Assembly: GCA_016200965.1 (NCBI GenBank)
Contig: JACQDT010000042.1
Location: forward strand, 1-37,678
Direction: 5' to 3'
Source: Candidatus Azambacteria bacterium
GTDB lineage: Bacteria; Patescibacteriota; Minisyncoccia; GWC2-36-17; WO2-46-25
DNA length: 37,678 bases
Under the pieces are notes generated by a model. The model was given only the letters and a program-made list of their open reading frames with translations, was not told where the DNA came from and did no database searches. The position numbers were made by a program, and so were the translations under genes. Shown here in pieces: positions 5,962 through 26,950 of this stretch. Every line of letters starts with the position of its first letter. Positions within the stretch are counted from its first letter, which is position 1.

Positions 5962-5985
5962 AGCGGGACGATGTTTCGTCCCGCT
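5962..5985 (-). terminator. intrinsic terminator of minus-strand unit ending with 6017 gene
   Basis: Minus strand AGCGGGACGA-AACA-TCGTCCCGCT followed by TTGCTTTTTG. Confidence 0.8.
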
Positions 5986-6016
5986 TGTGCGTTTTCGTTT
6001 ATATTCGGAGGAATTA

Positions 6017-6430
6017 TCATTGGGCAAAATTGGTGGTGAGGTTTTTCAAGGCCTCTTTGAAATCGCGCCCGGTGCCGATGGCGTATACGGTGTCTCCGTC
6101 CGAAAGCCGTATGTGCACGCGCTGTGTTCCGGTGAAGGTTACCGCGTCAAGCCATGACGTGTTCGGCAGCTCTTCCCCGTTGCTGTTGGCCATCTGCCAA
6201 AAGCCCATTTCAAACTCTTTCGCGTCTTTTTCCGTTTCCGCGATCATCGCGGAGTACGGCTCGGCGGCGCACACTTTCTTGTACGCGCCCATTATCAATG
6301 CATTGAATTGGACGCACACCGCGGTGATGTAGCGCACGGCATTCTTGTTTTTGGGCACGGCTACGGTGTCGGCCAATGATGCGGTGGAGCCAAAAAGAAA
6401 AACGATTGTACACGCGAACAATATTTTCAT
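6017..6430 (-). CDS. secreted hypothetical protein
   Basis: RBS AAGGAGGGATTGCG before ATG at 6430; signal peptide MKILFACTIVFLFGSTASLA; the longer ORF start would run through the hairpin. Confidence 0.8.
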   Translation of the reverse strand: MKILFACTIVFLFGSTASLADTVAVPKNKNAVRYITAVCVQFNALIMGAYKKVCAAEPYSAMIAETEKDAKEFEMGFWQMANSNGEELPNTSWLDAVTFTGTQRVHIRLSDGDTVYAIGTGRDFKEALKNLTTNFAQ

Positions 6431-6484
6431 CGCAATCCCTCCTTGTGAAAGAGCGCGGGAATTCGCTTGAGCGCGAGATTTTCT

Positions 6485-6553
6485 CCCTTTCAAAGATTTT
6501 CAACTTCTTGGAAATCTTTGAAAGGGAGGCGAGACGTTGTTTCGCCCCGCCCC
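6485..6553 (-). repeat. intergenic module copy M1 (hairpin A + hairpin B)
   Basis: ccctttcaaagattt/aaatctttgaaaggg perfect 15-bp stem, then ggcga..ttcgcc hairpin. Confidence 0.75.
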
Positions 6554-6561
6554 CGCCTTTA

Positions 6562-6963
6562 TTACTTACCCAGGTTTCGGAGAACGTCTATGATCGAGAT
6601 CATGGGCGATTCATAACAAACCGCCTTGAATCCTTTTCGGACCCCGATGTTTTCTCCCCAGTGTCCGAATTCCTCATGAACGCAAATCCAGAAAATTTCC
6701 ATGAGCGTGTCCGCTTTCATCCTGAGCTCAATCGCTTTCATCGCGGCCCCCTCCCGCATCTTGTCATCTCTTCCAAACTGAGCGTCGATCATATATCGCG
6801 CTCCGGCCTCAAGAAATCCCTTGGAGAGGGTGTAGATTTTTTTCGCGTCATCACTCACCTCCCCCAGCACTGTTTCACCGCGCTTGACCTCGGTGTCCGG
6901 CTCGACATAACTTTCGCGGCCAACCCCCGCGAGCTCCATATCCAGCAATTTTCTCCACGACAT
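6562..6963 (-). CDS. hypothetical protein, 133 aa
   Basis: Open frame with AAGGGGGAACAAACC upstream of ATG. Confidence 0.7.
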   Translation of the reverse strand: MSWRKLLDMELAGVGRESYVEPDTEVKRGETVLGEVSDDAKKIYTLSKGFLEAGARYMIDAQFGRDDKMREGAAMKAIELRMKADTLMEIFWICVHEEFGHWGENIGVRKGFKAVCYESPMISIIDVLRNLGK

Positions 6964-7030
6964 GGTTTGTTCCCCCTTCCTCTTTGAGTGTTTGTAATGT
7001 GCTTATCATCTTTCAACCCATCAAAATTTA

Positions 7031-7260
7031 AAAAAGCATAAAGCGGGCACTTCATGCATAAAGTGTTTCTGCTCACCGCTTCTTAGGATTGCTCCGTTGC
7101 GGGGAAGAATCTCCCCATCGAGGCATGCTGTGCCCCGCGTCCTCCCGTGCGCAGGCGCGCTCGATACGCGTCCACGCGGGGTTCCGTCGCGGCCCTTCAA
7201 GAGCCGCGGCTCGGACCCAAGCTAAGCCGTGTTTCCAACGTGCTTCACGCCATCAATCTT
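7031..7260 (-). ncRNA. candidate structured RNA 'A'
   Basis: No credible ORF; TTGACA-N18-TACAAT promoter immediately upstream; ends in AAGCGG[...CACTT..AAGTG.]CCGCTT then TATGCTTTTTT; homologous to 10811..11050. Confidence 0.65.
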
Positions 7261-7266
7261 CGCGCC

Positions 7267-7296
7267 ATTGTAATACTCTATGTTGTGTTCTGTCAA
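7267..7296 (-). promoter_or_regulatory. sigma70-like promoter for RNA A
   Basis: TTGACA (7296-7291), 18-nt spacer, TACAAT (7272-7267) on minus strand. Confidence 0.65.
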
Positions 7297-7306
7297 GCTT
7301 AAAAAG

Positions 7307-7334
7307 TTGACACATTATGTGCGTGTGATATAAA
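7307..7334 (+). promoter_or_regulatory. sigma70-like promoter for 7380 gene
   Basis: TTGACA-N16-TATAAA. Confidence 0.6.
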
Positions 7335-7379
7335 AGTAAAATTGGTTAGCATTCACAATCCGGAGAAAAGGAGGATGCC

Positions 7380-7667
7380 ATGATTAAGCACCAGCTCTTT
7401 ACCATCAACGAAAAGACAGGTTCCGTGATTTCATTTGCTCGAAAACATTGTTTGATGACAACGCTGTCTCCGGAGGGCAAAAAAAACGTTATCCATTGCG
7501 TGGATCCGTTCATCCGGTTTGCCGACGGCGCGTGCATGGTATGGTACACTGAACACTACAGCACCCGCTTCAAGAAAGAAAACCACGGGAAAAGAATGAT
7601 CGTTCTTTTGGGTGAGATTATTGAGGCGCGCACTTGGGATCACTACCAAGCCCATCCTTCTCGCTGA
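7380..7667 (+). CDS. hypothetical protein, 95 aa
   Basis: RBS AAAGGAGGATGCC; own promoter and terminator. Confidence 0.75.
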   Translation: MIKHQLFTINEKTGSVISFARKHCLMTTLSPEGKKNVIHCVDPFIRFADGACMVWYTEHYSTRFKKENHGKRMIVLLGEIIEARTWDHYQAHPSR

Positions 7668-7675
7668 AAAAACAT

Positions 7676-7703
7676 AAGAGGCATCTCCACAAGGATGCCT
7701 CTT
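7676..7703. terminator. bidirectional intrinsic terminator
   Basis: AAGAGGCATC..GATGCCTCTT with T-rich tracts on both strands. Confidence 0.75.
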
Positions 7704-7707
7704 ATCT

Positions 7708-8514
7708 TTATGCTTTGTTTTCCCGATTTTCTACTTGCATGGGAGGTTCATGTTCAAGGGGGGTGGTAATTGAAGGCGATTCACTTCTCTCTGTGCCAAA
7801 CCTGATTTGCACAATCCTTGCCTTCGTAAAATCTTGCAACTGCTCCGGCGTTAGTGTTTTCAAAAATTCAGCCGAAGCAAGTTCGGCATTGTCAAATACT
7901 TCCTTGCGGGTCACGGCCCCATCTCGAAATGCTCCCACATCGTCCAAGAGCTTTCTATTTATATATTCAGGCAATTCCACCGCGGCCATACCCTCTCCTT
8001 CATTGCGCACCACGTATACAGGGAGCGGTTTTCCCAGGATGTTTTCATACTGTTCTATTTTCCCCCATGTGGGAAGACGACGGGGATTCAATGCCATAAT
8101 GTCGCCGGTGAATTTAGTCCCGCGCGGGCCCGAGCCGGAATCGCTTATTTCCCCCGCGATGGTAATATCGGCCTCTTCTACGCGCGGAAGTGTCGCGATG
8201 TCGTTATCTTTATTGTATAATTCGTTGAATATTTCAAGACCGCTTCTCGGATTAAGCATGAGAGAAGCGTACGCTCGGTGAACGGGGTCGGGGTGGTTTG
8301 TCGCAATGGATTGGAGCGCGTCAATCATCTTCCCCATCTTTACAATAGTTTGCGCGTCAAGTTCTTTTATATATCTTGTTTGCACATCATGGCTTATGAT
8401 GGAGAGATAACGAATGCGCAAGTCGGGATCTTCACTCAGTCGGATATTATCAATCAAGCCAACTACTACGTCTTCGTTGATGTCGGGATCCCGTCCGGGA
8501 AAAAGATCAAACAT
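7708..8514 (-). CDS. hypothetical protein, 268 aa
   Basis: Long ORF on the operon strand, followed by terminator. Confidence 0.7.
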   Translation of the reverse strand: MFDLFPGRDPDINEDVVVGLIDNIRLSEDPDLRIRYLSIISHDVQTRYIKELDAQTIVKMGKMIDALQSIATNHPDPVHRAYASLMLNPRSGLEIFNELYNKDNDIATLPRVEEADITIAGEISDSGSGPRGTKFTGDIMALNPRRLPTWGKIEQYENILGKPLPVYVVRNEGEGMAAVELPEYINRKLLDDVGAFRDGAVTRKEVFDNAELASAEFLKTLTPEQLQDFTKARIVQIRFGTERSESPSITTPLEHEPPMQVENRENKA

Positions 8515-8535
8515 TGACTTGAATATTTCAAGCTT

Positions 8536-8709
8536 TTATGCTCGCGGCGTATTTTCGTCGAGCAAAAGATCTTCTAATAAATTTACTCCCAAACCGCGCT
8601 CGTTGTCATGAGGAGTCATTTCACGAAAAGCCTCGATATTTTTCTTCACTTCGAGCATTTCCTGATGTTTCTGCGTCGAAACGTCTTCAAAAATGGGCTG
8701 TTCTTTCAT
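8536..8709 (-). CDS. small hypothetical protein, 57 aa
   Basis: MKEQPIFEDVSTQKHQEM...; adjacent and co-oriented with the 7708 gene. Confidence 0.5.
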   Translation of the reverse strand: MKEQPIFEDVSTQKHQEMLEVKKNIEAFREMTPHDNERGLGVNLLEDLLLDENTPRA

Positions 8710-8766
8710 AGTTGTATATGTTATTTTTATGATCATATGTTATCACGGGTAAAAAGATAAAACAAA

Positions 8767-8788
8767 GCGGATGGTGTTTCCCATCCGC
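8767..8788 (-). terminator. terminator of the 13.5->8.8 kb minus-strand array
   Basis: GCGGATGG-GAAACA-CCATCCGC followed by TTTGTTTTATCTTTTT on minus strand. Confidence 0.75.
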
Positions 8789-8794
8789 CGTCAC

Positions 8795-9000
8795 TCAAAT
8801 TCCCTGCCAGGCCCTGAGGTCTCGCCGCTTGTTATATCCTCCCGCCATCGGGAAAGGAATTTCCAAGCGATCCCCTCTTACGTTCGGCCCCTTGAACGTT
8901 CTCCGCCCATGTACGGAGAAATCATTTTACATGGCTTCCCGATTCTTCAGCCAACATTGTCTCAACTGCTCTCTCCCTGTAGTCAGAGCAGTTGAGACAG
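8795..9000 (-). ncRNA. candidate structured RNA 'E'
   Basis: No credible ORF; perfect 15-bp hairpin TGTCTCAACTGCTCT/AGAGCAGTTGAGACA, plus CTCCG/CGGAG and ACGTTC/GAACGT hairpins; ends in a terminator. Confidence 0.45.
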
Positions 9001-9001
9001 T

Positions 9002-9124
9002 TTAGGCAATGAAGCCACATGCCCCGTTGACTGAAGTTGTCACAGATAGAGTACGAGCCCGCACGCTGTCGATTATAAATCGAACATTTGCGCAGGTCGG
9101 TGATAATTTTATTTCATACTCCAT
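9002..9124 (-). CDS. small ORF, 40 aa (MEYEIKLSPTCANVRFIIDSVRARTLSVTTSVNGACGFIA)
   Basis: RBS GAAAGGGGGTGAAAA before ATG. Confidence 0.45.
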   Translation of the reverse strand: MEYEIKLSPTCANVRFIIDSVRARTLSVTTSVNGACGFIA

Positions 9125-9164
9125 TTTTCACCCCCTTTCATCAGGTTGTATGGCTCGACCGCGG

Positions 9165-9218
9165 TTAGTAATCATATCTCTTCCTAGCTGTCGTCGCTAG
9201 AAAAATCACAGTCTTCAT
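9165..9218 (-). CDS. micro-ORF, 17 aa (MKTVIFLATTARKRYDY)
   Basis: RBS AAGGAGGGCGCG before ATG, directly after a module copy. Confidence 0.35.
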   Translation of the reverse strand: MKTVIFLATTARKRYDY

Positions 9219-9280
9219 CGCGCCCTCCTTATTATTTGATTGTTTGAAAAGAACTGTTCGGAACCAGCGTTATTGCTAAT

Positions 9281-9353
9281 CCCTTTCAGAAATTGTCAAC
9301 CAAGTAGCTAAACTAAAACGAATTCTGATTTACTTTTTGGTAATCTCTGAAAG
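9281..9353 (-). repeat. intergenic module copy M6 (hairpin B; box C at 9243-9254)
   Basis: ccctttcagaaatt ... aatctctgaaag; tttgaaaagaac upstream of RBS. Confidence 0.6.
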
Positions 9354-9361
9354 AGAAGCTT

Positions 9362-9390
9362 TTGACGAGGACAATTTTGCATGATATAAT
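9362..9390 (+). promoter_or_regulatory. promoter of hicBA
   Basis: TTGACG-N17-TATAAT. Confidence 0.75.
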
Positions 9391-9399
9391 ACGAACCTT

Positions 9400-9660
9400 A
9401 TGAAAACATATACCTATCGCATCATCATTGAACCGGACGAGCGCAACACGTTTCATGCGTATGTACCTGCGTTGCCCGGATGCCATACCTGGGGGAAAAC
9501 AATACAAGAAGCAAGAAAAAATGCCAAGGATGCCATTGGTGCGTATGTGCGAGTATTGGTCGCGGATGGAGAAAAAATTCCCGAAGACAAAGGAGTAGAA
9601 ATCATTGAGATGATCTCGTTCCCTTCTCCGATGAAGCGAAAATCGCTTTCCTATGTCTAA
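9400..9660 (+). CDS. hicB: HicB-family antitoxin
   Basis: YRIIIEPDERNTFHAYVPALPGCHTWGKTIQEARKNAKDAI, HicB fold signature. Confidence 0.85.
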   Translation: MKTYTYRIIIEPDERNTFHAYVPALPGCHTWGKTIQEARKNAKDAIGAYVRVLVADGEKIPEDKGVEIIEMISFPSPMKRKSLSYV

Positions 9661-9886
9661 ACTTCCCGTTATCAAGGATCGTCAGCTTATCCGAGTTTTA
9701 AAGAAGCTCGGATTTTTTGAACATCCGGAACGGGGAACTTCTCATCTTGTGTTCAAACATCCGGACGGCAGAATCACAACGGTTGCGCGCCATCCCGGAA
9801 AAGATATGCCGCGCGGCACACTTCGCGCGATTCTCCGCGATATCAATATTTCTATCACAGAGTTCATCCAATTTCTCAAGAAATAA
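9653..9886 (+). CDS. hicA: HicA-family mRNA interferase toxin
   Basis: KLPVIKDRQLIRVLKKLGFFEHPERGTSHLVFKHPDGRITTVARHPGKDMPRGTLRAILRD; overlaps hicB. Confidence 0.9.
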   Translation: MSKLPVIKDRQLIRVLKKLGFFEHPERGTSHLVFKHPDGRITTVARHPGKDMPRGTLRAILRDINISITEFIQFLKK

Positions 9887-9917
9887 ACTTTCAAAGAGCT
9901 CCCAGGAAACCATTTCT

Positions 9918-10011
9918 CCTTCAGAAACCACTTGAGATGTTTGGAGTCGGACTCCGAACACTCCGAACAAAATGATTTCTGAAAGAGAGGCCACGATGTT
10001 TTGGTGGCCTC
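9918..10011 (-). repeat. intergenic module copy M2
   Basis: ccttcagaaacc...gatttctgaaag, then gaggccac-gatgttttg-gtggcctc. Confidence 0.75.
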
Positions 10012-10029
10012 CCCAGTGAGGAAGGGTTA

Positions 10030-10668
10030 TTAGTTGAGGTTTTTTGGGGCGGTATATCGCGCGATGCGAAGCTGTTTCCGCATTTTGCGAATCGCATACA
10101 CGGAGACATCCGCGCACTCGGCGATGACCGTATCGGGAAGCTTTCCCAAAAAGGGCTTTATCTTCCTTTTGGGGTCGGCCACCTCCTTGAACGCGTAGGC
10201 GATGCCGATTTTCCGGAATGCCTGCCCGATGCCGCCGTAGTGGACTATGGCGGAGCGGTACACCGCTTGCTGTTCGCGCGCGAACCGTTCGGGAGACAGC
10301 GTTTCCTTTCTGGGCAACTGCGCAAGCGTCTGCGCGGCGCAGTAAAAAGGAGCTTCTGCCCGCACGGCGTTCGCGTGCCAGACGAGAATCGGTGCAAACC
10401 GATGTCTGCACCGTCTGTTTGAGCACCGCGTCGTGAAATCATTCGGATCCCGATTGAATCCCTGAATGATCTCCACCGGAGTCATTTTCTTGTTGCATCG
10501 TGGGCAGTCCCCTTTCGGAACGTAGCGCTCGCCCCGCAATGCCTGCACCAGCTCCATGCGCAGAGCAAATGCGCGCTGGCGCAACCGGAGCCGTTTTTCA
10601 ATTCTCTGCTCCAGTTTCTGTTCAACCGACTGTTCAACCCGCATGCCAAGCGACATTCCCATTCTCAT
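10030..10668 (-). CDS. zinc-ribbon-containing hypothetical protein, 212 aa
   Basis: RBS GGGAGGATTGCAC; CPRCNKKM...TTRCSNRRCRHRF double CxxC. Confidence 0.75.
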   Translation of the reverse strand: MRMGMSLGMRVEQSVEQKLEQRIEKRLRLRQRAFALRMELVQALRGERYVPKGDCPRCNKKMTPVEIIQGFNRDPNDFTTRCSNRRCRHRFAPILVWHANAVRAEAPFYCAAQTLAQLPRKETLSPERFAREQQAVYRSAIVHYGGIGQAFRKIGIAYAFKEVADPKRKIKPFLGKLPDTVIAECADVSVYAIRKMRKQLRIARYTAPKNLN

Positions 10669-10727
10669 GTGCAATCCTCCCATACATTTGAAAGAACTCG
10701 GAAGCTTGCTTGATTGCAAGATTGTCT

Positions 10728-10799
10728 CCCTTTCAGAAACCACTTCCTTGAGCCAAAGCGATTTCTGAATGGGAGGCAAGCAGTGTTTTGCTTGCCTCC
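10728..10799 (-). repeat. intergenic module copy M3 (box C at 10687-10697)
   Basis: ccctttcagaaacc...gatttctgaatggg, then ggaggcaagc-agtgtttt-gcttgcctcc. Confidence 0.8.
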
Positions 10800-10810
10800 A
10801 AATTATAGAT

Positions 10811-11050
10811 GATGCGCGCACTAAGTGATCAGCTTAGTGTTTCTTTCGCCGCATCTTAGTGGGTATCCCCACCATTGAGCGACTCTCCCCGTAGGGTTCT
10901 CGCTCATCAAGGCATGGGGATGCGTCTCACAAAGAGACGAGTCCCGCCTCCTGCCTTGAGCTCCTTCCTTCGCGTCCGCGCATGAGCTGGCCAGCTCTGC
11001 GCGACCCACGAAAGGAATCCCGGTTCGGAGCCAAACCCTTTTTTCTTGTT
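10811..11050 (-). ncRNA. candidate structured RNA 'B', homologous to RNA A
   Basis: GCGCAGAGCTGGCCAGCTCATGCGC hairpin; CATGCCTTGATG motif; terminal GATGCG[..AGAAACACTAAG..CTTAGTG..]CGCATC stem. Confidence 0.6.
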
Positions 11051-11088
11051 ACTTTTCCTTGTGTGAAGCGGACTGTCCTGCGCCTCTT

Positions 11089-11412
11089 TCAACAGGGGTC
11101 GAGGACAACCCTGTCTACCCGGACAAGCATATACGCGATGCCGTCTTGAGCAATCCAGTGCTCAAGCCGCACCTTCCCTTCGATTCTCCCGCCGCATGCG
11201 CCGAATCCTTTCAGAATATTTTCCAGCGCATCAAGCTCGGCGACGCGAAGTTGAACGTCAAGCTCGCGGATGTCCGCGGGAGCCGTACCTACCGCGTAGA
11301 TCGCCTTGTCCTCATGCCAGGGGTGGTTTTTGATTGTCCACGCTGGCCGCGCGGCAACAGTCGCGCAAGATGCCAGTACAACGCCCGTCAAAACAAAACC
11401 AATAAGCCGCAT
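11089..11412 (-). CDS. putative lipoprotein, 107 aa
   Basis: Lipobox MRLIGFVLTGVVLASC; RBS GAGGAGGAGG. Confidence 0.75.
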   Translation of the reverse strand: MRLIGFVLTGVVLASCATVAARPAWTIKNHPWHEDKAIYAVGTAPADIRELDVQLRVAELDALENILKGFGACGGRIEGKVRLEHWIAQDGIAYMLVRVDRVVLDPC

Positions 11413-11456
11413 GATGCCTCCTCCTCTCTGTTTAGTTTTCAAACTCGGGATTTCTT

Positions 11457-11523
11457 CCCTTCAGAAACTTTCAATCCCTTGAAAATCTCTGAAGGGGAGG
11501 CAAACGGTGTTTTGCTTGCCTCC
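11457..11523 (-). repeat. intergenic module copy M4
   Basis: cccttcagaaac...tctctgaaggg, then ggaggcaaacggtgttttgcttgcctcc. Confidence 0.75.
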
Positions 11524-11529
11524 TACGAT

Positions 11530-11740
11530 TCCCGGAAATTTCCGGGTATAAAGAACAAGGGGTGTCCGCAACGCTTCGACTGTTTTCAGCGTAAAGTGAG
11601 TCGCGGTTTTGGATTCCGGTCGGATCAACTATGGTATTACCAAGTTTCCGCGGGGAAGAGCCAAGGATTTATTTCCAAACCCTATCCCTGATAGCCACGC
11701 TTTGTCTGCTATCAATCTTCGGGACCAAAGAGTTCCATCG
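11530..11740 (-). ncRNA. non-coding segment 'D'
   Basis: No supported ORF; hairpins CCCGGAAATTTCCGGG and GATAGC..GCTATC. Confidence 0.3.
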
Positions 11741-11743
11741 GAC

Positions 11744-12241
11744 CTATTCTTGAGGCAACGGCTGTTTTAGAGCCGCGACTACCGCGTTCAGGCGAAACGG
11801 CATTTTGAATTTCATGCCGTTGATCCGGACTTCCATGGTAGAGGGGTCAAAATCCAATGATTTCACTTCCACCCCGCTTGCCCGCATCGCGCGCCGGACT
11901 GCATTCAGGATAGCGGTCGTATTCGTCTCATCACTTCCCGCCGCTTGAGATAAACTCTCCTTTTGCTTCTTTTGCGCGGCGGCGATAACGCTATCCGAAT
12001 ACCCGCCGAGATAGCGCTCCTTATCCCAAAGGCGCATCTCTTCGGCGTAGATATCAATATCCCCGTCACTGAATATCGCGTGCCCGTCGATTTCTATGGA
12101 GAAACCGGCGAACGATCGCGGCATCGTATCGGGCAAATCAATGTCATCGTAGATCACTCTGACAATCTTCCCGTTCTCGCATTGCACGTAAACGAAAACG
12201 GAGTCGTTATTGATCACGTTTCCAGCGACGAATGCTTTCAT
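11744..12241 (-). CDS. hypothetical protein, 165 aa
   Basis: RBS AAGGAGGCGGTC before ATG at 12241. Confidence 0.75.
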   Translation of the reverse strand: MKAFVAGNVINNDSVFVYVQCENGKIVRVIYDDIDLPDTMPRSFAGFSIEIDGHAIFSDGDIDIYAEEMRLWDKERYLGGYSDSVIAAAQKKQKESLSQAAGSDETNTTAILNAVRRAMRASGVEVKSLDFDPSTMEVRINGMKFKMPFRLNAVVAALKQPLPQE

Positions 12242-12293
12242 GACCGCCTCCTTTATATGGTTGAAGTTTAAAAAGAACCCAGGAAACCATTTT

Positions 12294-12361
12294 CCCTTCC
12301 GCAAACCACTTCTTGAGCTAAAGCGATTTCTGAAAGAGAGGCCACGATGTTTTGGTGGCCT
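12294..12361 (-). repeat. intergenic module copy M5 (box C at 12267-12278)
   Basis: gatttctgaaagagaggccacgatgttttggtggcct, near-identical to M2. Confidence 0.75.
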
Positions 12362-12385
12362 GTCCTGTAAAGATTAAGAAAGAAC

Positions 12386-12745
12386 TATAAAGACGGACGG
12401 ATGGGTCGTGAGCCCTTATTATTTCTGAGCTACCCGTCATAGCTCTGCTTGTTTGGGGCTCGCTCGAGCGACACCCTTGCCTGTTATGCACTTATAAAGT
12501 GCATGCCACCACAAGCGATGGGCATAGGAGAGAGACCTGCTCTCATCTACCGGCATTATATCTCGCCGGCAAAACGTAGTGGTTAATCACGTTACCTGAC
12601 CTCACGAGGCAGGATTAAGTTTCGTCGCCTTAGACACAAGTTCGGCAGACGATTTCTCAACCGGATCCGGTCGAGATTTGCTGGGGACTTTCGCTCCCAA
12701 TCCCTGGCGCAGTCAAAGCACGCCTTTCCCGCGGGACCGCAGTAA
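12386..12745 (-). ncRNA. candidate large structured RNA 'C' (~360 nt)
   Basis: No supported ORF on either strand; many local hairpins (ATGCACTT-TAT-AAGTGCAT, CCTGcCTCgtGAGgtCAGG, CTCGACC..GGTTGAG); flanked on both sides by GTTCTTTC boxes. Confidence 0.4.
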
Positions 12746-12939
12746 AATAAATTTTATGAAAGAACTCACCTCACCTTGAATCTCCAAATTGCTTTGGGGA
12801 CTCAAGAAAGGTGGGGAGGTGATGATATGAATGCGATGTATAAATCCCCGGGCCTTCCTGTTGCCCGCGCTTTTACTACGCGAAAGGACTTTATCGCAAC
12901 TCCGGTGCCTTGGCCGGAGATTGACGCGCTCTGCTTGGC

Positions 12940-13008
12940 TTACTTCGCTTTTGGGCGAAGGACCTTGCAGAGGGGGCATCCTTGATGCCTCCCCGTGCAC
13001 TTGACCAT
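12940..13008 (-). CDS. Cys-containing micro-ORF, 22 aa (MVKCTGRHQGCPLCKVLRPKAK)
   Basis: Strong RBS AAAGGAGGTGAGCTT before ATG. Confidence 0.45.
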   Translation of the reverse strand: MVKCTGRHQGCPLCKVLRPKAK

Positions 13009-13036
13009 AAGCTCACCTCCTTTCGGGTTATGGGTT

Positions 13037-13333
13037 TTAGCGGCGGTCTCCATTGCCGTTGCCACTGTGTTTCACGACGGTGGCAAAGGTTTTGAAGAAC
13101 TTCCGCTTGTTCTGCTGTTCGGCCTCCCACTTGAGAGTGTAGTCAAGCCGGTAGGACTTGACTCCCTCCTGATGGGCGAGCCGTCGGCAGTCGCGGCACA
13201 CGATCACGCGCTTGCCTTTCGTGGCCCTTTTATCCAGGGACCACATCTCGCGCGGGAGCTCTTTTGCGGCGCACCCCGGCGTGTCGCAGGCGTATGTCAC
13301 CACCTGCAAAGCGGCTTCCATGACACCCTCCAT
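13037..13333 (-). CDS. small putative zinc-binding protein, 98 aa
   Basis: CDTPGC and CRDC motifs; RBS GGGGGGAGGTGATTGAT. Confidence 0.7.
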   Translation of the reverse strand: MEGVMEAALQVVTYACDTPGCAAKELPREMWSLDKRATKGKRVIVCRDCRRLAHQEGVKSYRLDYTLKWEAEQQNKRKFFKTFATVVKHSGNGNGDRR

Positions 13334-13390
13334 ATCAATCACCTCCCCCCTAAGTTTGAAAGAACGTGGAATCAGCGTTATTTACCGATC

Positions 13391-13458
13391 CCTTCCAGAG
13401 GCCATCGCTAAGTATATGCGATAGTATGGCCTCTGTGGGTCCAATGGACTCTGGAAGA
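13391..13458 (-). repeat. intergenic/leader module copy M7 (box C at 13355-13365)
   Basis: ccttccagaggccat...atggcctctg...ctctggaag; shares AATAACGCTGrTTCC...GTTCTTTCAAAC with M6. Confidence 0.65.
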
Positions 13459-13491
13459 GAGCTAATCCTTTAATTGTCAATTATGTTGCAC

Positions 13492-13520
13492 AGTATACTC
13501 CCCTACAAATAATTTGTCAA
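13492..13520 (-). promoter_or_regulatory. sigma70 promoter of the minus-strand array
   Basis: TTGACA-N17-TATACT on minus strand. Confidence 0.85.
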
Positions 13521-13954: not shown

Positions 13955-14005
13955 AGCCGAGGATCGAAAAGGCAGAATAGCCGAAGTAGGTCCTCGGCTT
14001 TTTTT
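13955..14005 (+). terminator. intrinsic terminator / structured 3' region
   Basis: AGCCGAGGA...TCCTCGGCT followed by TTTTTTT. Confidence 0.75.
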
Positions 14006-14756
14006 ATTGATACTTTTCAGCGGCGTCCCATGCAAGATTAAAAAGAGAGCGTAGCGTGTTGGTTATTTCTTGATGATCAATAATAGCCCCAACCAATTTC
14101 CCTTTTAATGAAATCAAGGCAACTTTATTTCCGTAAATAAGGATGTCGCTATGAATTGGAAACTGACCTTGCGGCAGAATGCGTATATCATTAAGAGGAG
14201 CAATGTCAGAGAATTTCCCGCCTTTTCTTGTGTAGAGCGCGCGCACCTTTATCTTTTTTTGTTGGCGCATAAGAAGCGATTTCCTTAGTTCGTCTTGAGT
14301 AAAAACCCCATATAAATCATCCGAGGAATATATTTCTTCAATCTTTTTATCTTTTGTTTTCAAAAAGTCCTCTTGTATTGCAAGCAACCCTTCCTTGCCT
14401 TCATAGTATTGCACCTTCGGTTTTTCTTCCGCGTATTCATACATGTTCAAAAGTTCCGGGAGCAGATTTTCAAGCGATAGCGCGCTTGCCTTCAGCCGCT
14501 CTTCGCGACGCAGGAGTATGCGTTTGAGTATCGCGGGGTTTTGGGCGGCAAAAAGCGTCGTTTTGTTTTTTTCAAACGTACTCACGAGCCCCATTTTCAT
14601 GAGCGATTCTATTTCCACGTACGTCGTCGCGCGATTCACGCCCGCTTTCTCGGCAATCTTCGTCGCCGTCGCCGGCCCCAATTCCAAAGAAGCAAAATAC
14701 ACCTTCGCTTCTTTCTCTGATAGTCCAAATCGTTCCAAATCTTTTGAGGTGATCAT
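14004..14756 (-). CDS. TrmB-like HTH transcriptional regulator
   Basis: LERFGLSEKEAKVYFASLELGPATATKIAEKAGVNRATTYVEIESLMKMGLV. Confidence 0.85.
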   Translation of the reverse strand: MITSKDLERFGLSEKEAKVYFASLELGPATATKIAEKAGVNRATTYVEIESLMKMGLVSTFEKNKTTLFAAQNPAILKRILLRREERLKASALSLENLLPELLNMYEYAEEKPKVQYYEGKEGLLAIQEDFLKTKDKKIEEIYSSDDLYGVFTQDELRKSLLMRQQKKIKVRALYTRKGGKFSDIAPLNDIRILPQGQFPIHSDILIYGNKVALISLKGKLVGAIIDHQEITNTLRSLFNLAWDAAEKYQ

Positions 14757-18940: not shown

Positions 18941-19681
18941 TTACTCCTTTAGCGATCGCAAAAGGAATTCAAATACCTTTTTTTGATAGCCGGCAACGGC
19001 GGGATTTTCAATGACGAATGCGATTTTTTTCGTGAAGTCAACGAATGCAATGGTATTGTTGTAAATGAATTGGCTTATGCCGAACTCCATTACATCAAAG
19101 TCCGCAGGGATTATTTTAGAAACGCATTCAATACGATTTTTGAACGGTCTGTTACGCAATCCAGCGTTTGTGATGACGAACCGTTCAATCTGTTTCTTAT
19201 TGATAGCTGCTCGGTACGCATCAGAAACGTACCGATCAATGCTCAGAGATGGCGCATACCCGTCGTACCGATAAAAAGTACTGCCTTTCGGCAATGATGC
19301 CAACTCCTCCCACACTTTTGCTATATCTTTGCCGCGATAGACCCGTATGCCCATATCATCCGTATCGGGCTTCTCGCGTTCCGCGCATTTCTGAAAATGC
19401 GCAGTGAACGTCTTCCGGCTTGTCCTGTAAACGTCCAGCATTCTCTTGGCACCAGTAACGTGATACATAACTCGTCGTTTTTGCTTACGGGATGCGATAA
19501 GATTTTTCTCCATGAGACCGACCAAAAGACGGTATACTGCCGGGCGGGTCAGACCGGAAAATCGCGCAATGGCGCTTACATTCAAATCGCCATGCGCGTC
19601 CATGGCAAGCCATACCTTCGCTTCGCGCAGGGTAAGACCTGCAACGGTTAGTATTTGAGGAGTCAGTTGCTGTATGTCCAT
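18941..19681 (-). CDS. TrmB-like HTH transcriptional regulator
   Basis: LTLREAKVWLAMDAHGDLNVSAIARFSGLTRPAVYRLLVGLMEKNLI. Confidence 0.75.
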   Translation of the reverse strand: MDIQQLTPQILTVAGLTLREAKVWLAMDAHGDLNVSAIARFSGLTRPAVYRLLVGLMEKNLIASRKQKRRVMYHVTGAKRMLDVYRTSRKTFTAHFQKCAEREKPDTDDMGIRVYRGKDIAKVWEELASLPKGSTFYRYDGYAPSLSIDRYVSDAYRAAINKKQIERFVITNAGLRNRPFKNRIECVSKIIPADFDVMEFGISQFIYNNTIAFVDFTKKIAFVIENPAVAGYQKKVFEFLLRSLKE

Positions 19682-19792
19682 ATGTACCAAATAATTACAC
19701 ATTTATATTTTTTCTGCAAGCTTTCCAGAGAGATAGTAGGGTTAAGGGGAGATCTTTGAAAATTAACCATACAACGAATAAGGAGGCTTACT

Positions 19793-24739: not shown

Positions 24740-26950
24740 ATGACTCACTGTGAAACGAGTATATCCGAGACCCGTATGAAAGGTCACATCAACGATTTTT
24801 TGGAATATCTGGAAATTGAGAAGAACCGGTCGGCAAAAACGCTGGAAAACTACCGCCGGTATATTCTTGCATTTGTTTCTTTTGCCGGGATTGCCGATCC
24901 GTCGGACATCACCGCCCAGAAAGTGCGGAGCTTCCATGTGCACCTGAACCGGATTGGCTTGAAGAAAAACACGCAAGCGTATTATTTGGTTGCGCTCCGC
25001 TCGTTTCTGAAGTTTTTGGCAAAACGCGACATAAAAAGTTTTTCCGCTGACAAAGTGGAGCTGGGAAGGATGCCGGAGCGCGAGCTGGCGTTTTTGGATC
25101 TCCAGGAAGTAATGCGCCTGCTTGCGGCGCCCGAGGGGGACGACATTGCGGCGTTGCGCGACCGCGCGATTCTAGAGACGCTTTTTTCCACGGGCTTGCG
25201 GGTGTCGGAACTCACGGGGCTTAACAGAGAAAACGTCAATATCGAGCGCGGTGAATTCGCGGTGCGCGGCAAGGGGAGCAAATTGCGGGTGGTGTTTCTG
25301 TCTCCGGAGGCGAAAGAAACGTTGGGCGCGTATCTTGCAAAAAGGACCGATGTGCACGACGCGCTCTTTGTGAGGTATCGCGCGAAGCAGGAGCAGGCGG
25401 CGGAGCTTCGCCTGACGCCGCGTTCGGTCCAGCGGATCATAAAAAAATATGCGGTTAAGGCGGGTATCGTGAAAAAAGTGACGCCGCATCAATTGCGTCA
25501 TTGTCTTCATCCCGATACGCTTATTTTTTTGCCACAGGGCATAACTAACGCAAAAAGTTTATATACGACAAAAACAAAAATTACCTCTTTTGATTTTAAG
25601 GCATTGCGCTTTGCTTCTGGCAAGATTATCAATAAGACAAAACATCAGGCGAAAGGGATGCTTTCTCTTCTGGCTGACGGCTATGAACTGACCTGTTCTT
25701 CTCAACACCGTCTCTTTACCATCGGCACTGACGGGATCGAGGAAGTTTTTGCCGGAGATCTCAAAATTGGAGATTATATTGCCGGAGTCAAGCACGTGAG
25801 AGTTGATGGCCATGCCAAAACCGCGCACCCATTTTTAAGCGTAAAAATGTGGCGATATCTTGGATATGTTATCGGTGATGGAACGGTCAGCGAACGGAGA
25901 AGAGGGATTATTATTACTGACAAAAACAGAAGGAGGATAGCATTTTATTACGATCTCCTCGTTTCAATAGGACATAAACCCATTATGCATCAGAAACCTG
26001 GTTCCGCGAGCTATACCTTGCATTTTTATTCCAAGAAAATGGTGAGCTTTTTAAGAAGCATCGGATGTACCACCATCGGAAACAAAAAACGGGTACCCCC
26101 GCTCATTTTTAAGGCAAGCAAAAATGAAGTACGGGCGTTCCTCGCCGGTTTTTATGATGCTGAAGGGAACGAAGGAACGGGTGGTGTAAGAATATTCTCT
26201 TCAAGCAAAATGCTACTTTTGGAAGTTCAGGCTCTGTTTTTGTTGCTTGGCATAGATATTCGTTTATACGAAAGAAACCGTCGGGTCCGCTTGCCGGATA
26301 AGAAGATGACGCAACACACCATGTATTCTTTACAAATTTTGCGTTTGCCGGACCAACTGTCCTTTCTGCAAAAGATTCCGACATTCAAAAATGTTTTATC
26401 ATCACTTAGAAAGAATGCCAACAGCGATAAATTGCCGGTCAGATCTCTCTTGCGAAAAATATACTTTGGGCTGGGCGGCGGGCATTGGAAACAATTCGCG
26501 CAGTGGCTCAAAGCGGATAACCATATTGATATCTATCGGTATATTGGAGCAACAACAAAGATAGTTCTCACGAAAGAAACAGCATTGAAAATAATCGCGC
26601 TTTTAAGAAAAATAAACTGCCAGGATCCGCGCCTCTCTGTTTTAGAAAATTTGGCAAATGATAAACATGTTAAATGGTTAAGGGTAAAAAAGATAAAAAA
26701 GATTGACTACAACGAAGCTATGTACGATTTTGCCGTTTCTCCCCACCAAACGCTTGTGACGAATGGTATTATTTCTCACAATTCATTTGCCACCGATCTT
26801 TTACAAAACGGCGCGGACATCAGGTCGGTGCAGGCGATGCTCGGCCATTCAAGCATTGCCACGACCCAGATATACACCCATTACACCGACAAACACCTCA
26901 GGGAGATCCATAAAAAGTTCCACGGACAAAAACCTAGTTCTTCAAATTAA
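24740..26950 (+). CDS. XerC/XerD-type tyrosine recombinase precursor containing an intein
   Basis: SAM-like N-domain; [49 protein letters not shown] split by a 427-aa insert; host could be XerC, XerD or XerA-like. Confidence 0.92.
25502..26782 (+). mobile_element. intein with LAGLIDADG homing endonuclease domain
   Basis: Begins [19 protein letters not shown] (block B-like), [10 protein letters not shown] and [10 protein letters not shown] (DOD motifs), [21 protein letters not shown], then Ser+1. Confidence 0.93.

Follow-up and report, generated by a model that had tools for sequence, protein, structure and literature searches.

Why should a bacterium of the Patescibacteria, a group with very small genomes, a host-dependent life and many genes without known function, devote several kilobases to small open reading frames (ORFs) separated by long structured non-coding segments? 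Such a locus is present in Candidatus Azambacteria bacterium (assembly GCA_016200965.1), in the 37,678-nucleotide contig JACQDT010000042.1, hereinafter the window, which is contig C17 of an 866-kb genome of 42 contigs (G000). It is a chromosomal array in which nearly every module has the same type of leader, namely, hairpins A and B, often a sequence resembling boxA, and then either a Shine–Dalgarno (SD) sequence with an ORF or a non-coding RNA. This type of locus matches none of the tested families, and no paper describing it, or joining boxA or antitermination with this group of bacteria, was found in the open-access literature. We give about an even chance to the reading that the leader is an expression device similar to that of ribosomal RNA (rRNA) operons, with boxA antitermination and probably RNase III processing, which would serve fast-changing small genes and structured RNAs. 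The analysis directly established the element itself, its covariation and strand bias, its occurrence across the phylum, the motif resembling boxA, and a nusB gene that is present and often close to the array. New here are a covarying RNA element absent from Rfam and recurrent protein families without a Pfam match, and the locus offers a clear test case of repeated boxA antitermination within one operon that does not encode rRNA.

On the minus strand of the window, small ORFs alternate with non-coding segments, starting from a promoter at 13520 (TTGACA-17-TATACT, 13492–13520, 11/12 match in a consensus scan), where the original prediction, made from the letters of the window without database searches, had placed one. 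Seven hairpin A/B elements, all on the minus strand, were mapped between 13.5 and 6.0 kb (13387–13480, 12291–12362, 11453–11522, 10725–10798, 9913–10011, 9278–9366 and 6482–6552), which confirms the modular array with repeated leaders described in that prediction. A unit comprises hairpin A, which is rich in GC and has an A-rich loop, then hairpin B, which abuts on it and has some 20 pairs, the sequence GTTCTTT or GCTCTTT, an SD sequence, and the payload. Two models of the element were used: R1, the first, whose matches led to genomes G002 (array L019) and G017 (array L020), and R2, a covariance model made with 12 copies of the hairpin pair. The first unit had an element at 13387–13480 matched by the models (R1/R2), with a B-type stem at 13387–13461 and a divergent hairpin A; R2 matched both hairpins at 12294–12364 (59 bits, unit of gene 11744), 11453–11523 (77 bits, unit of gene 11089), 10725–10799 (72 bits, unit of gene 10030), 9913–10014 (65 bits, 9.9-kb unit) and 6482–6552 (64 bits, unit of gene 6017), as well as hairpin B of the micro-ORF unit, with a degenerate hairpin A, at 9275–9366 (33 bits). 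The predicted order of hairpin A, hairpin B, box, ribosome-binding site and ORF holds in general, with the exceptions that hairpin A was poor or absent in two of the seven units (the first, at 13.4 kb, and the 9.3-kb unit) and that the 11089 unit had only a degenerate box (GAGTTTGAAAAC). The scan of the 866-kb genome with R1 revealed the seven elements and no further convincing hairpin A/B element.

Since ordinary ORFs fill positions 7380–8736, the locus consists of two transcription units and not of one continuous array. The second unit starts at 7296 from a promoter that also bears out the prediction (TTGACA-18-TACAAT, 7267–7296, minus strand, 11/12 match in the consensus scan), comprises RNA A with genes 6562 and 6017, and has its terminator at 5986–5961. 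Terminator-like hairpins on the minus strand were found at this position and at 8789–8766 and 7057–7036; the last of these, with a T-run, lies between RNA A and gene 6562 and may be an attenuator or mark the 3′ end of an RNA. Hairpins A and B are not followed by a U-run and were rejected as intrinsic terminators.

In the R2 alignment, 89.5% of the cells were paired, and 20 of the 26 pairs had changed on both sides (57 cells), which was equalled in none of 500 shuffles; the signal was lost once one arm was slid. Stem B, with about 20 pairs and 93% paired cells, had one conserved G-U position. With R2, matches were obtained in 43 of the 384 class genomes (E ≤ 0.01) and in 13 of 380 genomes of the phylum, other classes among them (E ≤ 1 × 10−4), and on about 25 contigs from 24 genomes at least two elements shared a strand and lay no more than a few kilobases apart. 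The single match in L065 (G074) was false, being located inside 16S rRNA, and the single matches in L066, L074 and L078 were set aside. Relatives and covariation, on both of which the original prediction had made its claim depend, were thus found. Arrays L019 and L020 were organised like that of the window, and L019 comes from Candidatus Azambacteria JACRAK010000005 (G002), which belongs to the same family as the window genome. An independent test was provided by a basic peptide of about 50 amino acids (aa), GGA(H/Q)..KG..GY.R, encoded in six arrays. A search with the protein alone found it in 20 of the 384 class genomes, of which 14 were outside the source arrays, and 13 of these 14 had no earlier R2 match (G155 had a weak one elsewhere). 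The R2 element was detected at E < 0.01 in 8 of 15 peptide loci of about 3 kb each, 45 kb in total (L161, L162, L163, L165, L166, L168, L169 and L170).

The properties of hairpin B are compatible with another function, in which the two-hairpin element would mainly serve RNA processing or stability. Hairpin B would be cut by RNase III or some other nuclease and hairpin A would protect the upstream 3′ end, yielding individual mRNAs and RNAs as in the T7 early operon, and the box would be no more than a spacer or a ribosome stand-by site. Hairpin B is long, near-perfect and strongly covarying, the hairpins are located between units, and an RNase III gene (PF14622) was found in 12 of the 12 array genomes tested. 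This explanation, which we consider rather doubtful, does not account for the enrichment of boxA-like sequences after hairpin B or the proximity of nusB, both described below, and the weak hairpin A of some units also speaks against it.

The box GTTCTTTC, which the original prediction had left unexplained, is boxA-like. The motif after hairpin B was read as boxA, the signal for NusB/NusE antitermination, because it matches both the boxA consensus GYTCTTTAANA (PMC5725501) and the GTTCTTTAAAA box of a CRISPR leader. According to PMC7862264, which cites Stringer et al. (2020), GTTCTTTAAAA ahead of a CRISPR array boosts the transcription of long non-coding arrays. On the minus strand of the window, boxA-like sequences were located at 13354–13365 (GTTCTTTCAAAC), 12753–12765 (GTTCTTTCATAAA, with non-coding RNA C directly after it), 12374–12385 (GTTCTTTCTTAA), 12267–12278 (GTTCTTTTTAAA), 11546–11556 (GTTCTTTATAC), 10686–10697 (GTTCTTTCAAAT), 9889–9899 (GCTCTTTGAAA), 9243–9254 (GTTCTTTTCAAA) and 6443–6454 (GCTCTTTCACAA). 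Contrary to the predicted position after hairpin B, the boxes at 12385 and 11556 stand just ahead of hairpin A. GYTCTTT occurred nine times on the minus strand of the array versus a Markov mean of 1.04 (maximum of 6 in 2,000 simulations), and all nine occurrences were intercistronic, this position being a stronger argument than the count. Among the 90 nucleotides following 86 element copies, the most enriched hexamers were TTCTTT (28 versus 1.6 expected) and GTTCTT (21 versus 1.7), with SD words next. Boxes directly ahead of non-coding modules were found in the window (12765), L067 and L144. Related boxes were also present in many 16S leaders of array genomes, for example, GGTTCCTTGAAAAC in G000, and the box of the 16S leader was especially similar to that of the array in G191 (GCACCTTAAAAA and GCACCTTTAAA, respectively) and to that of the array leader in G002 (GCCCTTTGACAA and GACCTTTGACAA, respectively).

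The gene for NusB was found in 12 of the 12 array genomes tested, and in seven loci (L020, L058, L084, L142, L143, L146 and L147) nusB was located within about 6 kb of the array, while about 0.5 cases would be expected by chance among about 36 loci (a rough estimate, from 12 kb in about 800 kb). The gene order in L020 is nusB-rnc-smc-TrmB-array. Both features by which a NusB/NusE leader may be recognised, a GYTCTTTAANA-like box in the putative transcript and a NusB gene, and both features of a putative RNase III-processed operon, a long stem separating the units and a gene for RNase III, were thus found. In the proposed mechanism, NusB and NusE would bind each boxA, and an antitermination complex of the rRNA type would be re-formed at every module. 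RNA polymerase could thereby transcribe long, highly structured and poorly translated segments without being stopped by Rho or by hairpins, and RNase III would cut hairpin B (about 20 bp), separating the transcript into units as in rRNA operons. Because antitermination is the best supported mechanism, the arrays are grouped here with boxA-led operons. The suggestion in the original prediction of a multi-RNA operon with processing or regulation of each unit gains support from an element that is strand-biased, covarying, conserved across the phylum, and often accompanied by boxA and SD sequences.

The strand bias was expressed in a more stable fold on the transcript strand in 84 versus 12 of 97 copies (mean −33.2 versus −26.1 kcal/mol); among the copies of the window, the transcript strand folded better in six of seven. 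The transcript-strand fold, together with the downstream boxA and SD sequences, favours a function as RNA.

Several observations weigh against antitermination of the rRNA type. The strand-stability test is partly circular, the model having been trained on the transcript strand. boxA is a short motif, and GYTCTTT is not rare outside the array (27 occurrences in 60 kb of the rest of the window), which gives a local enrichment of about 2.7-fold. A recognisable boxA was missing from about half of the copies of the element, including most of those in L019 except its leader, and the boxes of arrays were not identical to those of rRNA operons (for example, GGAACCTTGAAAA versus GTTCTTTGAGAAAA in G313). 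Three of the seven loci linked to nusB belong to one family (f151), so that the seven correspond to fewer events, and nusB was not located near the array in the window genome.

The copies without a clear box would be accounted for if the elements were self-acting antiterminator RNAs like the put sites of phage HK022, in which a pair of stem-loops contacts RNA polymerase itself and NusB is not required. The put sites are about 70 nucleotides long, consist of two nearly abutting stem-loops, act independently of factors and have no boxA. The array element has the same size and gross anatomy; however, no sequence relation between the two is known, many arrays come with both NusB and boxA, and put sites occur in one or two copies in the phage and not once per gene. 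This possibility was considered improbable.

A joint control of all modules by a regulator encoded in the array or by the TrmB-type gene, for whose product the hairpins would be binding sites in translation or transcription, was considered the least probable of the alternatives. Seven loci (the window, L020, L055, L060, L068, L080 and L147) have a TrmB-type gene upstream of the array and on the array strand, and the conserved G-U position of stem B and the recurrent basic peptide might also be explained in this way. However, TrmB-type proteins bind DNA, and the basic peptide was not found in the window genome. It should be noted that the region upstream of the window array contains two TrmB-type regulators (14004–14756 and 18941–19702, minus strand), with a PIN-domain gene (14758) and a gene with a nucleotidyltransferase domain (16218) between them.

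Compared with the boxA leaders of rRNA operons, the array has the same succession of one or more hairpins, boxA and structured non-coding RNA, stems of a size suitable for RNase III, and boxes related to those of the 16S leaders of the same genomes, whereas it repeats the leader before many unrelated small genes and RNAs and includes SD sequences with ORFs. The covarying two-hairpin element is new relative to these leaders. CRISPR leaders, too, contain boxA (GTTCTTTAAAA) ahead of a long non-coding array (Stringer et al. 2020, cited in PMC7862264), but with one box per CRISPR array, while the array of Patescibacteria has no repeats and spacers. In protein-coding genes with boxA in the 5′ untranslated region, such as suhB (PMC5725501), boxA is likewise located shortly upstream of the start codon; suhB, however, is a single gene with an autoregulatory boxA, without a hairpin pair or an array. 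Identification of the locus as a CRISPR array was rejected, the repeats being diverged leaders with ORFs, with no search aimed at cas genes. A phage or satellite operon was rejected as well, given that three queries had no match among viral contigs and no PHROG family was found at E < 0.01. A known Rfam family was likewise rejected: the array had no match above the gathering score, and the scan at gathering and permissive thresholds alike gave only chance matches.

The payload of the window array begins with a small Cys-pair protein (13037–13333; all features of the payload are on the minus strand unless stated otherwise), with relatives in L057, L080 and L019 (phmmer cluster with L057, an alignment, and a weak BLASTP match to L019). 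It is followed by the micro-ORF MVKCTGRHQGCPLCKVLRPKAK (12940–13008), which is similar to an MVKC...CPCCR micro-ORF in L019, and by RNA F (12850–12927), a conserved hairpin CTCCGG-CCAAGGCA-CCGGAG whose stem covaries, being CTCCGG/CCGGAG in the window versus CTTGGG/CCCAAG in L019. RNA F was rejected as a general marker of arrays, since it was found in just 2 of the 384 class genomes and in one named genome, JACRAK010000005. Farther on are a hairpin ahead of RNA C, identified by fold and position (12774–12806, CTTGAGTCCCC...GGAGATTCAAG), RNA C (12390–12752), and a small ORF (11744–12241) whose C-terminal 31 aa resemble L019 7543–7737 (pairwise BLASTP, E-value = 6 × 10−6). Thus, L019 has in common with the window the Cys-pair ORF (weakly), the MVKC micro-ORF, RNA F and part of ORF 11744, in a different order. 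The next features are RNA D (11557–11743), a small lipoprotein-like ORF (11089–11412) with a weak LPP20 match below the cutoff (Pfam E-value = 0.022), RNA B (10805–11050), and a 212-aa ORF with Cys pairs (10030–10668), for which no Pfam family and no convincing PHROG were found. Two micro-ORFs (MKTVIFLATTARKRYDY and MEYEIKLSPTC..., 9002–9218) with SD and ATG in the sequence precede RNA E (8766–8990), whose 3′ end is the terminator-like hairpin 8789–8766. RNA A (7036–7260), with its terminator-like 3′ hairpin, and the small ORFs at 6562–6963 and 6017–6430, the latter with a start resembling a signal peptide and both without a family found, belong to the second unit. Folding compared with dinucleotide shuffles revealed that the long non-coding segments are structured, as had been proposed (z = −5.94, −3.09, −2.55 and −2.43 for RNA B, D, A and C, respectively), whereas MAFFT alignment gave no convincing homology among RNA A, B and E. 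The modules were also said to lie in one orientation, which is true of all seven elements, but the prediction missed hicB (9400–9660, Pfam HicB, 1.1 × 10−13) and hicA (9653–9886, Pfam HicA, 3.8 × 10−20), which form the antisense payload of the 9.9-kb unit on the plus strand, with their own promoter at 9362–9390 (plus strand).

Array contents vary from species to species, and most array ORFs have no Pfam or PHROG family; recurrent payloads are the Cys-pair protein, the basic peptide and receiver-like proteins. In genomes G169 and G191 of the same genus, genes and ends of the array are shared and the intervening genes differ. L144 contained three tandem RNA units of about 366 nucleotides, of which two were almost identical, L060 contained an exact 133-nucleotide repeat, and L055 mixes two sequence types of hairpin B. 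Several kilobases given to varying small proteins and RNAs with leaders of the rRNA type point to something that needs strong expression and frequent change. We tentatively propose, as a possibility less well secured than the antitermination device itself, a new class of cassette array: one locus of Patescibacteria in which small genes and structured RNAs would come and go, be duplicated and change order as modules ready for expression, each with its antitermination-processing leader, and in which no integron integrase would take part.

The same turnover, together with the module repeats in L144 and L060, the mixing in L055 and the oppositely oriented hicBA pair that fills one unit, would be expected if the elements were themselves the recombination sites of a cassette system, with modules moving via folded single strands like attC by means of a different recombinase. 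The number of arrays near contig ends (about 14 versus about 10 expected) agrees weakly with this. However, no array genome contained more than two tyrosine recombinases, no array had one beside it, and none was found in the complete genome G554; the stable structure forms on the transcript strand, includes G-U pairs and is followed by boxA and SD sequences; and homologous recombination between repeats could also cause the turnover. We therefore regard recombination sites as an unlikely function of the elements. The array resembles integron arrays in its small, mostly uncharacterised payloads in one orientation, in a structured element of about 70 nucleotides per module and in turnover, and differs from them in having no integrase near the array, a fold on the transcript strand, and an element located 5′ of the payload with boxA and SD sequences. 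No RYYYAAC...GTTRRRY core sites of attC were seen by eye in the aligned elements. An integron was rejected, as no IntI-type tyrosine recombinase was found next to any array checked or in G554. Accordingly, the integron-like cassette array considered in the original prediction stands in its anatomy (turnover and module duplication) and fails in its defining integrase.

Some further arrays and modules deserve mention. Arrays often lie near contig ends (about 14 seen versus about 10 expected, roughly; G169:C11, G191:C10, G091:C2/C6/C25, G489:C24, G684:C1 and others), which may reflect within-population variation. A structured sequence of about 100 nucleotides, TTTCCAC.ATTCTGGG...CCCAGAAT.GTGGAA, was present in about ten copies in arrays L142, L143, L146 and L148 from genomes outside the class of the window, and an RNA module whose start is GGCGAAATGRACAT (or GGCAAAACGAACAT) and whose end is the complement of its start was found in L058, L062 and L149 from three unrelated families. 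For two gene products of L053 and L054 without a match, no homology was found. The distant genomes with L144 and L070 share a protein of 377–380 aa, which Pfam identifies in L070 as an AAA ATPase, and after it a large second protein, and the element is located between this gene of the MoxR-like AAA ATPase type and the large second gene (L144 4458–9017 and L070 6220–9708, array-strand coordinates). The second gene of L070 has a weak CobT-VWA match, and the arrangement is perhaps a conflict-type system. In L067 (G089:C3, 6973–10166, array strand), elements lie between an uncharacterised gene and a helicase-like gene. Elsewhere in the window, a gene for a tyrosine recombinase (Xer-like; 24740–26950, plus strand) is split by an intein with LAGLIDADG domains (Pfam). 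In the same genome, the 16S rRNA gene (G000:C7, L002) contains near its 3′ end a long insertion that apparently encodes a homing-endonuclease-like ORF.

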